A stretch of DNA of 64,000 nt from an uncultured Sunxiuqinia sp. GTDB taxonomy: Bacteria > Bacteroidota > Bacteroidia > Bacteroidales > Prolixibacteraceae. The notes beneath the pieces were generated by a model. It had not been told where the DNA came from and ran no database searches. It worked only from the letters and a program-made list of their open reading frames with translations. Made by a program: the position numbers and the translations under genes. Where the stretch lies: contig NZ_CANLZV010000003.1 of NCBI RefSeq assembly GCF_947495665.1, positions 62,001 to 126,000 of the forward strand. The letters are read 5' to 3'. Shown in pieces: positions 4,097 to 26,551 of this stretch (position 1 is the first letter of the stretch; each line of letters begins with the position of its first letter).

Positions 4097-4465
4097 TTAG
4101 AATGGTAAATCGTCTTGATTATTTGATTCTGGTGGAATATCATCCGGAGTAAATTCAGGAGGTAACATATCCGGAGCTCCGTTGGCTGCCAGACGGTCAA
4201 TACGCCAGGCGTTGATGTTGTGGTACCAGCGACCATTAAACTCACGCGATTCAACCGAGAAAGAAACATTCACATCTTCGCCGGTATTCAATCCTTCCAG
4301 CAGTGATATTTTGTCATTGAACAGTGTAAAACAGATTTGCTTTGGAAACTGACCATCGACTACTTCAATCACAAACTCTTGTTTTTTCCAATCTTTCCCG
4401 GCTTTACTCACTCCGGAACTTACGTCTAAGATTTGGTTGATTTTTCCTTTTACTTCTAAACTCAT
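4097..4465 (-). CDS. DUF3127 protein, OB-fold-like with SSB-type acidic tip
   Basis: 122 aa. It begins MSLEVKGKINQILDVSSGVS and contains KDWKKQEFVIEVVDG, the conserved opening of DUF3127, a family largely restricted to Bacteroidota. The predicted beta-rich core with a substrate-like loop (REFNGRWYHNINAWRI) resembles an OB fold. The last 30 residues are acidic and Pro-rich and end in DDLPF. Bacterial single-stranded DNA-binding proteins end in a very similar tip (D-D-x-P-F) that docks partner proteins. The family has no settled function; a nucleic-acid role is inferred from the tail. It is monocistronic, bounded by terminators on both sides. Confidence 0.88.
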   Translation of the reverse strand: MSLEVKGKINQILDVSSGVSKAGKDWKKQEFVIEVVDGQFPKQICFTLFNDKISLLEGLNTGEDVNVSFSVESREFNGRWYHNINAWRIDRLAANGAPDMLPPEFTPDDIPPESNNQDDLPF

Positions 4466-4506
4466 TACTTCAATATTTTTCTGTTGCCAAAAATAGGGAT
4501 AAAAAA

Positions 4507-4536
4507 AGACCCCTGAGAAAAAAATTCCAGGGGTTT
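4507..4536 (-). terminator. Intrinsic terminator after the FKBP pair
   Basis: Arms at 4509-4515 (ACCCCTG) and 4528-4534 (CAGGGGT) pair perfectly around an A/T loop. Seven T follow on the minus strand. It ends the transcript of the two FKBP genes before the DUF3127 gene. Confidence 0.8.
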
Positions 4537-5952: not shown

Positions 5953-6612
5953 TCAGGCTTTCTCGCCCATTAACATTTGTCGTTTTCCAGGAGGGCCCGG
6001 AAGCCGGTGCATGAGAAAACCATTTTGCTGCAACGAACGTCGAATAACTCCTTTGGCACAGTAGGTTGTCAGGATTGCTCCGGGCTGGCATTGGGCACTT
6101 ATTTTACTGAAAATGGCATCGGTCCACAGCTCGGGTTGCTTGTCCGGGGCAAAGGCATCAAAATACACCAGGTCGAAAAAGGGGAATTGTGCAAGATCAA
6201 CCGAACAAAGGTCGGCTTGCAGCTTGGTCAGCTCAAAGCCTGGAGCAATTTGGACCGGTTTTCCCCATTCACTATGGTGTAAGTTCAAAAAAAGCGACTG
6301 GGTTTCTGTATCGTAATTTTGGGCATAGTTCAGCTGGCTGTATTCGGCTTCCGTCAGCGGATACTTTTCAAGTGAATAATAATGAATGGTTTTTTCCTGC
6401 CGATTCAACAAGCTTAGCAGGGTATTGAGTCCCGTGCCAAAACCAATCTCCAGAATGTTGATTTCGGTTTTGGTGCAGCGGTTAAGCCCGTTGGCGATAA
6501 ACACATGCATGGATTCTTGTATGGCCCCGTGTATGGAGTGAAAATGTTCATCCATTTCAGGCAAGTAAAGGGTGTGCGATCCGTCCTCGGTCAGTTTTAG
6601 GAATCGTTTCAT
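5953..6612 (-). CDS. mnmD: tRNA (mnm5s2U34) methyltransferase, standalone MnmD
   Basis: 219 aa, corresponding only to the methyltransferase half of E. coli MnmC. Diagnostic motifs are GSHTLYLPEMDEHFHSIHGA at the N-terminus, the SAM-binding ILEIGFGTGLNTLL at about 50-65, FDAFAPDKQPELW at about 150-165 and TYCAKGVIRRSLQQNGF near the C-terminus. It uses SAM to methylate 5-aminomethyl-2-thiouridine at the wobble position of tRNAs for Lys, Glu and Gln. The FAD-dependent MnmC1 oxidase half is absent, as is usual in Bacteroidota and Gram-positives, where MnmD acts alone. Confidence 0.93.
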   Translation of the reverse strand: MKRFLKLTEDGSHTLYLPEMDEHFHSIHGAIQESMHVFIANGLNRCTKTEINILEIGFGTGLNTLLSLLNRQEKTIHYYSLEKYPLTEAEYSQLNYAQNYDTETQSLFLNLHHSEWGKPVQIAPGFELTKLQADLCSVDLAQFPFFDLVYFDAFAPDKQPELWTDAIFSKISAQCQPGAILTTYCAKGVIRRSLQQNGFLMHRLPGPPGKRQMLMGEKA

Positions 6613-23027: not shown

Positions 23028-23060
23028 AAGAGGCATTTTTCTGTAAAATGCCTCTTTTTT
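23028..23060. terminator. Bidirectional terminator between clpB and the Hpt gene
   Basis: Arms 23028-23039 and 23045-23056 (AAGAGGCATTTT) form a 12-bp perfect stem. It has six T on the plus side and a run of A before it, so it can end both clpB and the convergent Hpt gene. Confidence 0.88.
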
Positions 23061-23415
23061 ATGCTAGTTGATCCATCACTTCCTGAAGTTCCAGTTCGGC
23101 TTGGCCAATAACCAGATCAAACTCACTGATGTAGTCGGGATACGATTCAATATCTTCCAGTTTCTGGGTTTTTAGTTGCAGCTCTTTCAGCTTCCATCCC
23201 AAATCTTCCATTCCAAAGGTCATAACGGATGATTTGGCTTTGTGTGCCAACTCGCCAAGCTCTTTATATCTTTTATGGCTTAGATGTTCGTGTAGGCCAA
23301 TCTTAAATTCAGGAAGTTGATCAAAAAACAAGGTGATAAATTCTTTCAAAATATCATCCTGACCTCCTGTAATCTCTTTTAGATAGTCTAAATTGGTGTA
23401 TCTTTTTTCAGGCAT
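23059..23415 (-). CDS. Hpt-domain (histidine phosphotransfer) protein
   Basis: 118 aa from ATG at 23415; an ATG four codons upstream exists, but the paralogue at 24147 aligns from here. The all-helical protein contains GELAHKAKSSVMTFGM, an Hpt phospho-acceptor motif with His58 followed by the Lys and small residues that pack in the bundle. It would receive phosphate from a receiver domain and pass it on. No kinase or regulator is adjacent, so partners are unknown. A paralogue without the His lies 375 bp upstream on the same strand. Confidence 0.8.
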   Translation of the reverse strand: MPEKRYTNLDYLKEITGGQDDILKEFITLFFDQLPEFKIGLHEHLSHKRYKELGELAHKAKSSVMTFGMEDLGWKLKELQLKTQKLEDIESYPDYISEFDLVIGQAELELQEVMDQLA

Positions 23416-23790
23416 AGCTCTGTACATCAGTTAAAACATGCAATTATAGGTAAATTTTGGCTATTATGCCAGAGGTTAAACGGGTAGTTCTGTTTTAGTT
23501 GCTGTTTCCTGCTTATTGAGCGTTTGTTTGTAAGGTAGTGTTTGGTCAAAATGTTGAGGGAAGCTGTGTTTTGCTGATCAAATCAGAAAGGAAAAAGGCT
23601 GGGGGAGTGGTCTTGTTTTCAGAATGAGTGGAGCAATGGTTGAGTGGTTTTTGGGACAAATAGTTCTTAACGGTTTTACGGAGTAAAATCAACAGTGAAA
23701 CATCATTAATGGCATATCAATGACGTTTGGTCGTCAGATGTTACGTTCAGGCTTGTGCTGGTCAGGCAGGAATCAAATTGCTGAACGTGT
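23416..23790 (-). other. Gene-free stretch between the two Hpt-like genes
   Basis: 375 bp. I see no ORF. A weak 5-bp inverted repeat, TGACG-TTTGGT-CGTCA, lies near 23720-23737. A short G-rich stretch around 23590-23610 (GGCTGGGGGAG) resembles parts of the intergenic hairpin at 43212. Otherwise nothing is recognisable. Confidence 0.5.
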
Positions 23791-24147
23791 CTAGGAAAAC
23801 TTACGCAGGGCCTCTCTTAACTCCAGGTCTGCCGCTTGTGTTACAGACTCAAACTCTTCAACATACTTGGGGTATGAATCGAGCCCAATTTGTTTGTAGG
23901 TCTTCGCATGAAGAATTCGTAGGTTGTGAGACAAGTCAAACATGCCAAAGGTCAGCACCGATGAGTTGGCCATTCGCGCCAAATTTCCCAGCTCTTTCCA
24001 TTGTTTGTTGTCGAGGTAGCGTCTAAAATCTCTCCGAAATTTGGGAATTTGCTCGAAATACAACTGGATGAATTCTTTCATAATTTTAGCCTCTCCTCCT
24101 GTGGCTTTCTCCAGATACCTTAAGTTGGTCAATCGTTTGGTTTTCAT
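23791..24147 (-). CDS. Degenerate Hpt-like protein lacking the phospho-acceptor His
   Basis: 118 aa, aligned end to end with the gene at 23059-23415 (shared TNLxYL, ATGG/ITGG, KEFI, WKELGNLA, LTFGM, DLELREAL). In the acceptor motif the paralogue has LAHKAKSS, while this protein has LARMANSS: His58 is Arg58 and the following Lys is Asn. The fold should be kept but phosphotransfer cannot work through that position. It may have become a binding or decoy protein for a receiver domain. The frame is intact, so it is not an obvious pseudogene. Confidence 0.75.
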   Translation of the reverse strand: MKTKRLTNLRYLEKATGGEAKIMKEFIQLYFEQIPKFRRDFRRYLDNKQWKELGNLARMANSSVLTFGMFDLSHNLRILHAKTYKQIGLDSYPKYVEEFESVTQAADLELREALRKFS

Positions 24148-24294: not shown

Positions 24295-25386
24295 ATGAAA
24301 AAAACAGCTTTAAATCAACTCCATAAGCAAGCAGGAGGGAAGATGGTTGAATTTGCAGGCTATGAAATGCCGGTGGAATTCAGCGGAATTAAAGATGAAC
24401 ATTTAACAGTCAGAAACGGTGTTGGCGTTTTTGATGTTTCTCATATGGGGGAGTTTTGGGTAAAAGGGCCTAAAGCTGCCGCCTTGGTACAGAAATTAAC
24501 CACAAACGATATCTCCAAACTTCGGATGGGGCAGGCCCAGTACACTTGTTTTCCCAATGGAAAAGGGGGCATTGTGGATGATTTACTGGTTTATTATTAC
24601 GAGCCGGAGAAGTATCTGCTGGTCGTCAACGCTTCCAATATTGAAAAAGACTGGGATTGGGTGGTTAGTCAAAACCAAGAGGGAGCCGAACTGGAAAATG
24701 CTTCAGACCGAATCAGCCTGCTGGCCATTCAAGGTCCCAAAGCCATGGAAGTACTGCAAAAGCTGACCCGGGTTAACCTTAGCGATATCCCGTTTTACAC
24801 CTTTGTAACCGACGAGTTTGCGGGGATCGACGATGTCATCATTTCAGCAACCGGTTATACAGGTTCTGGTGGTTTTGAGCTGTATTTTGACAATGCACAT
24901 GCCGAGGCCATATACAAGGCTATTTTTGAAGCCGGAGAAGAGTTTGGCATTAAACCGATTGGCTTGGGTGCCCGCGATACGCTGCGTTTGGAAATGGGAT
25001 TCTGCCTGTATGGCAACGATATTGACGACACCACTTCGCCAATCGAAGCTGGTCTGGGATGGATTACCAAGTTCAATGAAGACAATGACTTTATTGACAA
25101 GGAATTGCTGTCGGTTCAAAAAACGGAAGGCGTTGAACGCAAGTTAAGAGGCTTTGAAATGATTGATCGTGGCATTCCGCGCCATGGCTACGAACTGACT
25201 GACCAGAACGGCGTGGTTATCGGACAAGTTACTTCCGGTACCCAGTCGCCCATGCTAAATAAAGGCATTGGAATGGGCTACGTTGCCAAGGAATATTCTG
25301 CTTTCGGAACAGAAATTTATGTGAAAGTACGGACGAAATTATTAAAAGCAAAGGTAGTTAAAGTACCTTTTGTAAGTCTTCAATAA
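24295..25386 (+). CDS. gcvT: Glycine cleavage system T protein (aminomethyltransferase)
   Basis: 363 aa, the standard length. Typical motifs are [36 protein letters not shown] (about 43-60), [27 protein letters not shown], the [15 protein letters not shown] segment and [20 protein letters not shown] (about 222-241), whose Asp region binds tetrahydrofolate. It transfers the aminomethyl carbon of glycine from the H protein to tetrahydrofolate, releasing ammonia. The other gcv genes (P, H) are not in the window. It has its own terminator. Confidence 0.96.
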
Positions 25387-25415
25387 GGGGATTGACTTAC
25401 TTGTTACTAATCTTT

Positions 25416-25442
25416 AAACCCACTACACCAGTGGGTTTTTTT
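25416..25442 (+). terminator. Intrinsic terminator after gcvT
   Basis: Arms 25416-25424 (AAACCCACT) and 25430-25438 (AGTGGGTTT) with a 5-nt loop and a following T run. It separates gcvT from the repeat element just downstream. Confidence 0.85.
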
Positions 25443-25480
25443 GTGTCCTGAAGCCAACGTGCCCTGCAGGAATAAAACCT

Positions 25481-25627
25481 ATGAAGAAGTATAAAAACTT
25501 GATGCAGAATGCTGTTCTGGTCATGCAGAATTTAAAAATGGAGTTGCAGAATTGTGATATGGGCTTGCAGAAGGCGTATTTGCTTTTGCAGAACCATTCT
25601 GCAAAAGCAAATACGCCTTCTGCATAG
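25481..25627 (+). CDS. Possible 48-aa heptad-repeat peptide built from a 21-bp DNA repeat
   Basis: ATG at 25481, stop TAG at 25625. The reading frame follows the 21-bp DNA repeat, so each repeat gives seven residues. Successive heptads start MKKYKNL, MQNAVLV, MQNLKME, LQNCDMG, LQKAYLL and LQN, followed by a Ser/Ala/Lys tail. The first residue is always Met or Leu, then Gln/Lys, then Asn/Lys. The frame is open throughout, which favours a peptide, but the conserved part at DNA level is only TGCAGAA, which favours a DNA or RNA element instead. No RBS or full promoter is seen, and there is no family I recognise. Treat as a candidate only. Confidence 0.35.
   Translation: MKKYKNLMQNAVLVMQNLKMELQNCDMGLQKAYLLLQNHSAKANTPSA
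25482..25624 (+). repeat. 21-bp-periodic TGCAGAA array ending in a perfect 28-bp inverted repeat
   Basis: TGCAGAA occurs at 25503, 25524, 25545, 25566 and 25587, each exactly 21 bp apart; TGAAGAA at 25482 is in the same phase with one change. The 14 bp between copies differ. The reverse complement TTCTGCA follows at 25597 and 25618, again 21 bp apart. As a result 25566-25593 is a perfect 28-bp inverted repeat of 25597-25624, with only CCA between the arms. It is not a CRISPR array (repeats too short, spacers 14 bp) and not a simple terminator (no T run). No further copies of the cluster are seen in the window. Confidence 0.9.
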
Positions 25628-25760
25628 CAATTTATGCTACAGGAATAGTGGGAAAGGGTAGTATGGCTTTAAAATTGAAACCAGGAAGGGGTAAAATTTA
25701 ACAAATAGACAATTTGCCGGAATTGTTGAGCTTAATTCTGATTTATTTTGAATAGAGCTT

Positions 25761-25768
25761 TATCTTTG
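25761..25768 (+). promoter_or_regulatory. Possible -7 element for the ComB-family gene
   Basis: TATCTTTG matches TAnnTTTG and predicts transcription from about 25775. That supports the ATG at 25793 rather than any upstream start. The -33 box is not clear. Confidence 0.45.
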
Positions 25769-25792
25769 CTCTCCGAACCCTTATTGGACACG

Positions 25793-26551
25793 ATGAATAC
25801 GAAAAAACGCTCGCTGGAAGTTTGTTTGACTCCGGCTATTTACGATAAACATGCCAAAGACGAAAACATCGTGGTGGTGATTGATGTGCTGCGTGCCACT
25901 TCATCGATCTGCACGGCGTTTGCCAATGGTGTTAAATGTTTGATACCAGTTGCCACGGTTGAAGAAGCCCGCCAAAAGAAAGAGGAGGGCTACATTGTGG
26001 CTTCCGAGCGCGATGGCTACGTGCTGGACTTTGCTGATTTTGGCAACTCACCATTCAATTTCACCCCCGAAAAAGTGAAAGGCAAAGAAATTGTGTACTC
26101 CACTACAAATGGCACCCGCTGCATCCACATGGCCAGTCATTCGCGCGAAGTGGTGATTGGTTCATTTTTGAACTTGTCGGCATTGGCTGATTATTTGATT
26201 CAGCAGGATGCACCGGTTCTTATTTTTTGCGCATCGTGGAAAGACCGCTTTAGCCTGGAAGATACCGTTTGTGCCGGCGCTTTAGCCGAGCTGTTGCTGG
26301 CATCCGATAAGTACGAAACCATTTGTGATGCTGTAACTGCATCGATGGATTTATGGTCGGTAGCAAAAAACAACCTGGATGCTTACAGCCAGAAAGCTGC
26401 GCAGAAGGGACGTCTGGCCTCCAAAGGACTGGATGATTGCATCGGTTTTTGCCATCAGTTGGATTTTACCAGCCTGATCCCATATTACACCGATAGCATG
26501 CTGCTCGCCAAAAGCCCGGGCATTAATGGCAAGTCGCAAGCTGCTGAATGA
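25793..26551 (+). CDS. 2-phosphosulfolactate phosphatase family protein (ComB-like)
   Basis: 252 aa from ATG at 25793; the open frame upstream lacks family residues. ComB-family motifs are VVVIDVLRATSSICTAFANG (about 32-51), ASERDG and FGNSPFNF in the first half, then STTNGTRCIHMA (about 103-114) and FCASWKDRFSLEDTVCAGAL (about 142-161). In methanogens ComB removes phosphate from 2-phosphosulfolactate in coenzyme M synthesis. No coenzyme M or sulfolactate genes are nearby, so the bacterial substrate is open; a phosphatase role is inferred from the family. Confidence 0.88.
   Translation: MNTKKRSLEVCLTPAIYDKHAKDENIVVVIDVLRATSSICTAFANGVKCLIPVATVEEARQKKEEGYIVASERDGYVLDFADFGNSPFNFTPEKVKGKEIVYSTTNGTRCIHMASHSREVVIGSFLNLSALADYLIQQDAPVLIFCASWKDRFSLEDTVCAGALAELLLASDKYETICDAVTASMDLWSVAKNNLDAYSQKAAQKGRLASKGLDDCIGFCHQLDFTSLIPYYTDSMLLAKSPGINGKSQAAE

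Follow-up and report, generated by a model that had tools for sequence, protein, structure and literature searches.

The array analysed here lies in an uncultured Sunxiuqinia sp., within a stretch of 64,000 nucleotides (hereafter, the window), beyond the intrinsic terminator of gcvT and next to a gene that matches PF04029 (2-phosphosulpholactate phosphatase). The features of the locus, in window coordinates, are the following.

25416 to 25438, + strand: intrinsic terminator behind gcvT (9-pair stem and T run), upstream of the array
25481 to 25627, + strand: whole array (six direct words, dyad centre, two mirrored words), which coincides with an open frame, judged incidental, of 48 codons and a stop
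25482 to 25488, + strand: direct word 1, TGAAGAA, with one mismatch
25503 to 25509, + strand: direct word 2, TGCAGAA
25524 to 25530, + strand: direct word 3, TGCAGAA
25545 to 25551, + strand: direct word 4, TGCAGAA
25566 to 25572, + strand: direct word 5, TGCAGAA
25587 to 25603, no strand assigned: dyad centre TGCAGAA-CCA-TTCTGCA, made of direct word 6 and the first mirrored word
25566 to 25624, no strand assigned: 28-bp perfect inverted repeat with a 3-nt loop
25618 to 25624, - strand: outer mirrored word, which reads TTCTGCA on the + strand

Re-reading of the sequence bore out the anatomy given in the preliminary description, i.e. exact TGCAGAA words at 25503, 25524, 25545, 25566 and 25587 in 21-bp steps, an in-phase TGAAGAA word with one mismatch at 25482, mirrored TTCTGCA words at 25597 and 25618, a perfect hairpin in which the 28 nt of 25566-25593 are 100% complementary to 25597-25624 across the 3-nt loop CCA, and an open frame at 25481-25627 that encodes 48 amino acids and ends in TAG. 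The contrast drawn there between a conserved word and a free spacer held for the window array, whose first five direct units show a mean pairwise identity of 0.94 in the 7-bp word and 0.36 in the 14-bp spacer. It does not hold everywhere, because the spacers of three arrays from a genome of the same genus (G001) are more alike (0.60-0.67, with words at 0.83-0.88) and an A/T tract is kept in mid-spacer in the arrays linked to the gene family X (see below). A phased 6-mer scan revealed no second array in the 64-kb window, and a terminator scan of 25300-25850 returned 25416-25438 only, with no intrinsic terminator at the array itself. The array is flanked by CTGCAGGAATA and CTACAGGAATA, which by eye are 10/11 alike and might be a target-site duplication. 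Elsewhere in the window, two neighbouring small proteins encoded on the - strand (23059-23427 and 23791-24147) are similar in sequence and presumably resemble histidine phosphotransfer domains.

The seven genomes of the genus (G000 to G006, G000 being that of the window) were searched with a three-word pattern allowing up to 3 mismatches, followed by a reading for 21-bp rows and by a centre-plus-flank pattern. The same design was found at seven further places, namely C15 of G000, C34 of G003, C4 of G004, C15 of G006, and C133, C162 and C306 of G001, which with the window array gives eight arrays in five of the seven genomes, with steps of 21 bp and occasionally 20 bp. A centre made of a word, 3 bp and the mirrored word, with a 3-nt loop, was present in all eight arrays compared, a count made with a pattern written so as to admit the word variants seen. 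The reversed control pattern (three words, up to 3 mismatches) had no match in the genome of the window, which excludes chance for the window array, and one match each in G004 and G005. The possibility of a one-off slippage product, for which the preliminary description had proposed a search for similar arrays, was therefore discarded, since such arrays turned up both in the genome and in its relatives. Beyond the genus, the centre with the TGCAGAA word was found in none of 394 other Bacteroidota genomes (up to 1 mismatch) and in no viral contig. With 2 mismatches tolerated, matches occurred in 44 of the family's 140 genomes, 39 of which are outside the genus; the matches in these 39 look by eye, though not judged one by one, like coding sequence or chance, and the reversed control likewise gave scattered matches.

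Four of these arrays (G000, G003, G004 and G006, from four species) share one locus, termed locus A, where they lie right at the stop codon of a member, 244-261 codons long, of the gene family designated X here; a nearby gene we take to be adenosine-deaminase-like. The design is kept at locus A although the spacers differ greatly among the four genomes, and the G003 array begins inside the X frame, which continues into it. G005 carries an X gene with the word CAAGAAT about 2 kb from the locus-A neighbour gene, probably at the same locus. Of the eight words in the G000 locus-A array, five are TGCAGCA, found to either side of the centre, two are TGCAGAA and one is AGCAGAA; its centre word is TGCAGAA, as in the window array, and most other places have a one-letter variant.

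The association with X was then quantified in 70 of 120 table rows of X copies, i.e. 30 first loci and 40 follow-up copies chosen by hand while their flanks were still unseen. The 3' flanks of the first 30 loci carry arrays of the same design with other words, recognized at first by eye, such as TGCGAGG six times with CCTCGCA six times (one mismatch allowed), or CCCTGTT followed by AACAGGG. The commonest 6-mer exceeded the best of 20 plain shuffles in 20 of 30 3' flanks versus 1 of 28 5' flanks. When the distances between identical 6-mers within 400 bp of the X stop codon were pooled over the 30 copies, 123 pairs fell at a lag of 20, 259 at 21, 394 at 40-42 and 248 at 61-63, and any other lag between 7 and 70 had at most 11; the highest values in the controls were 18 for the 5' flanks (lag 21) and 34 for coding ends (lag 12). 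A downstream array of at least two phased steps (one exact 6-mer, 20-21 bp) was present in 64 of the 70 copies, compared with a mean of 0.7 of 70 and a maximum of 4 in 20 rounds of dinucleotide shuffles, and with 3 of 28 5' flanks. At least three steps were reached by 52 of the 70, versus none in the shuffles and none of the 28 5' flanks; 6 copies thus fall short of two steps and 18 short of three. In the follow-up set, 36 of 40 reached p<=0.005, the smallest value possible with 200 dinucleotide-preserving shuffles for each copy.

Nine of ten 19-kb stretches around X contained exactly one array, beside X, with nothing else passing, and the tenth contained no array at the scan threshold; in these stretches, therefore, the array goes with X rather than with gene ends at large. 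These data bear on whether tandem duplication, slippage or template switching could have produced the array as a neutral by-product. The perfect 28-bp repeat does look as if template switching had recently copied the final one and a half units, but a neutral origin is very improbable in view of the gap in identity between words and spacers in the window array, of a design fixed in four species and of its occurrence only beside X in the ten stretches, and as a full account neutral slippage is refuted by these same observations.

In the X-linked arrays, the unit consists of a 6-7-bp word plus a spacer, and steps of 20 and 21 bp are mixed. Profiling of 20 arrays put the A/T content at 0.74-0.77 in the tract at +11 to +14 relative to the word, roughly a helical turn away from the centre of the word, and at about 0.5 around this tract; the profile fixed the words exactly, which biases the word columns and leaves the spacer columns unbiased. 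The mirrored half often begins about 10 bp (roughly one turn) or 31 bp from the last direct word; some arrays have words on one strand only, and the L432 array is very unequal, with a 1:9 split of its words between the two sides. The window array has the same arrangement, with 21-bp steps and a mirrored word at 10 bp. As seen by eye, several X-linked arrays lie, like that of the window, behind a terminator-like hairpin and T run, and others begin at the stop codon, which favours an element acting at the DNA level.

This geometry also weighs against a small gene for a heptad-repeat peptide, which was proposed in the preliminary description. The window frame is open from ATG to TAG, and the direct half is free of stops in five of the seven other arrays, but the frame is not kept among relatives. 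The direct half is interrupted in two of the eight arrays (two stops in G003, four in C133 of G001), the 20-bp steps of many X-linked arrays are incompatible with any reading frame, and the peptide has no Pfam match. We consider such a gene hardly credible.

Another explanation is that the mirrored halves pair and that the resulting hairpin acts as RNA (at the 3' end, in stability or as an sRNA) or, extruded as a cruciform, as single-stranded DNA. In favour of it, the z-score of the sense-strand fold is -7.3 for the window array (-7.2 in a separate fold of 25470-25650), -5.5 in G006, -5.2 at C133 of G001, -5.0 in G004 and -3.9 at locus A of G000, the commonest word at the latter stands on both sides, and the loop of the centre is 3 nt in all eight arrays. 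Nevertheless, the z-scores are weak in G003 (-2.4) and at C162 (-2.1) and C306 (-1.1) of G001, so that with three of eight arrays folding weakly pairing is not a constant. Furthermore, some arrays, that of the window included, lie behind an intrinsic terminator, very unequal arrays such as that of L432 exist, and Rfam gave no match at gathering level, only matches below it, for 25300-25900. The period of 20-21 bp suits B-DNA (10.5 bp per turn) rather than A-form RNA (about 11). A structured RNA or cruciform is therefore unlikely to be what the arrays are for.

X is a multicopy gene family with members in 48 of the 140 genomes examined from the family of the window, with one to nine matches per genome having any, and in none of 394 other Bacteroidota genomes sampled; this sample is apparently the draw used for the centre search, and its list shows no other member of the window's family. 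X was not found in plasmids (one query), and no occurrence in viral contigs was confirmed. One X protein had no match in Pfam, PADLOC or PHROG, and 18 members searched against Pfam yielded only nine weak hits, each from a single member (best E 5e-4), with no transposase among them; a profile of these 18 proteins found no solved relative in the PDB. In NCBIfam, 17 of the 18 matched NF052641 (PQLLE family protein) weakly at E<=1 (best E 4.3e-12), two members scoring 25 and 22.6 bits against a cut-off of 80, and the only other hits were three from single members; the term PQLLE was not found in the open-access literature searched. Of 30 X copies, 20 have an isoelectric point of 5.8 or lower, an acidity that argues against X itself binding DNA in the majority of copies; the five X proteins of the locus-A type are basic (8.8-9.7).

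The window itself holds no X gene: none was detected by hmmsearch among ORF segments of at least 50 amino acids at E<=1, and tblastn gave nothing convincing, its best E value being 0.15 over 20 residues far from the array. The window array thus differs from its class in having no X gene directly upstream, i.e. it is an orphan (solo copy). A comparable case is C133 of G001, where the array follows an X remnant of 42 residues (E 4.6e-10) and which is an intermediate towards a solo array; no X remnant was found at C162 and C306 of the same genome. Elsewhere in its own genome, G000 has the locus-A X gene on another contig, two X copies (L443 and L444) with other phased words, and one broken X copy. 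The words of L443 and L444 lie behind a terminator, as judged by eye, and were equalled in 0 of 200 and 1 of 200 shuffles, respectively. L443 and L444 show 73% overall similarity over 969 bp, and by eye their leaders, 200 bp ahead of the X start, are also alike and include a CCGCCGGC...GCCGGCGG-like hairpin. At the window locus in relatives, G002 has no array (by eye), G003 and G004 have at most one word-like site, and no clean junction was seen; the single TTCTGCA-like word in G003 and G004 was considered as a remnant and rejected as too little to claim. The window array is either a leftover of an earlier X locus or a non-autonomous copy that has dispersed.

The word itself changes from copy to copy. 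Four X copies that are 82-88% identical have the words GGGAGAAC, TGTAGGA, TGCGGA and CAAGGA (the CAAGGA array, that of L435, being weak and mixed), and three syntenic copies that are 90-92% identical have AACAGGA, TGCAAAG and CACAGGA. At the same time, the nearest relatives of X (C-terminal part) share the word in 29 of 64 cases versus a mean of 7.2 and a maximum of 18 in 2000 trials with shuffled labels, a shuffle that ignores common descent and a comparison in which two copies had no usable protein alignment. Taken together, these comparisons indicate that the words follow X loosely and change faster than X does. Words were shared in 3 of 40 same-genome pairs versus 223 of 1976 other pairs, and there is no clear sign of enforced distinctness within a genome.

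The number and distribution of X copies could suggest that X and its array form a transposable unit, with X as a new transposition protein, the array as its recognition end and solo arrays as non-autonomous derivatives, as REPs are to RAYTs. Such mobility would fit the multicopy nature of X, the location of the 82-88% identical copies (L450-L453) amid mostly unrelated neighbours (L450 and L453 share some), the restriction of the similarity between L424 and L433 to some 1.2 kb that begins 260 bp ahead of X and reaches into the array, and the arrays without an intact X in G000 and G001. On the other hand, no target-site duplication or empty site has been shown, no catalytic motif is evident by eye in X, the X loci of L454-L456 are syntenic and locus A is fixed in four species, and the array word does not always travel with X. 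On balance, we regard a transposable unit as rather unlikely.

The reading that we prefer, with a confidence somewhat better than even, is that the window array is an orphan of a class of DNA elements normally located behind X genes, most likely a row of helically phased, putative protein sites around a dyad. A row of such sites at a spacing of two turns was among the options in the preliminary description, and it fits best the 20-21-bp spacing and the mirrored words at about 10 or 31 bp in dozens of arrays, with the binding itself deduced from this regularity. Each word would be a half-site for a sequence-specific DNA-binding protein, and the protomers, because the words recur every 20-21 bp (two helical turns) and reverse about the dyad, would line up on one face of the helix and spread both ways from the central palindromic site, possibly with the help in their alignment of the A/T tracts about one turn from each word. 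In some arrays the mirrored spacers also pair, which binding to the words only would not need. The protein serving the X copy at locus A of G000 may also bind the orphan in trans, a link that is only suggestive given that the G000 X array consists mostly of TGCAGCA. Our leading guess is that the array would function in the maintenance or mobility of the X unit; autoregulation, insulation or silencing are other candidate roles.

More tentatively, and with rather less than even confidence, we propose that X and the array represent a new type of genetic unit, in which an uncharacterised protein gene is tied to a rewritable address. This address would be an array with helical phasing and dyad symmetry in which the 6-7-bp word varies little within any one array but is replaced between copies, even at syntenic loci, faster than the protein changes. 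Some process of recognition or copying would then have to keep the words in step while the spacers drift, and the window would contain an address without its gene. The results point to an undescribed module across a family of Bacteroidota, with an uncharacterised gene and, behind most copies examined, phased sites whose word varies among copies. A row of words that change together while the spacers drift poses a testable question on DNA recognition and concerted evolution, and the arrays, used as bait, offer a handle on the function of the X family.

A scan for TGCAGAA arrays across phyla, covering at least 120 stretches, returned many coding coiled-coils, 7-bp microsatellites and plain minisatellites (by eye), together with some genuinely phased or mirrored arrays in MAG bin.11, Actinobacteria and Acidobacteria; a scan that selects for TGCAGAA cannot show that this word is special. 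No X relative was found at the loci of these arrays (ORF segments of at least 50 amino acids), and ten proteins encoded beside seven of them shared no common family, so the cross-phyla arrays were not merged with the X-linked class. In MAG bin.11, an uncultured genome, several TGCAGAA arrays (L051 7480-7710, L074 1-230 and L101 3306-3556) step by 21 bp and have their mirrored words at 31 bp from the final direct word; no X relative was found, and the genome has 31 overlapping pattern matches. In two actinobacterial loci (L052 4747-4965 and L045 1411-1620, from Microbacterium and a MAG), mirrored words come first, followed by a gap of about 60-110 bp and then direct TGCAGAACG-N8-TCCC units; the L052 array lies between apparently convergent genes. 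The acidobacterial L057 has 21-bp arrays around an inverted core (4316-4520 and 6375-6480), adjoining a small ORF weakly similar to a REP-associated tyrosine transposase (22 bits versus a cut-off of 80). Prauserella (L054, L078 and L082) has many dispersed 21-bp arrays with a unit near TGCAGRACACGCGGTGCTGAG and 55 overlapping pattern matches in one genome, and in the Pyrinomonadaceae arrays of L136 2831-2960 some units combine the word with its mirror, as TGCAGAA-NNN-TTCTGCA with 4 bp more.

Among the matches listed in a search of the open-access literature, no description of such a gene-plus-array module was found, and the arrays can be set against four known systems. Plasmid iterons, direct repeats with a length of about two helical turns, are recognized at an origin by a cognate Rep protein, whereas the X arrays lie in chromosome-sized contigs, are mirrored about a dyad and occur several times per genome; no replication gene came to notice with them. 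CRISPR arrays combine unique spacers with longer, uniformly oriented repeats and are accompanied by cas genes; the window array, with a 7-bp word, a 14-bp spacer and an orientation that flips at the centre, is not CRISPR-like in its repeat architecture. REP/BIME elements and REPtrons, in which a RAYT gene is flanked by REPs, resemble the X arrays in being short, palindromic and extragenic, linked to a gene in places and solitary elsewhere (PMC3733652). However, RAYT is an HUH tyrosine (Y1) transposase and X has no match to such a protein, REP units are imperfect palindromes of 20-40 bp each whereas array units are one-way words in a row with the palindrome at the centre, and, unlike REPs, the X arrays have no common tag (a few words hold GTAG) and keep a fixed 20-21-bp phase. 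Finally, the TAACTGA-type heptamers are conserved intergenic 7-mers that occur in sets, also in some Bacteroidetes (PMC4679880). In the available portion of that report, they are direct repeats of one fixed word that in the main genome lie mostly just before start codons, and no linked gene family was found for them, whereas the arrays described here are linked to X and vary in their words.
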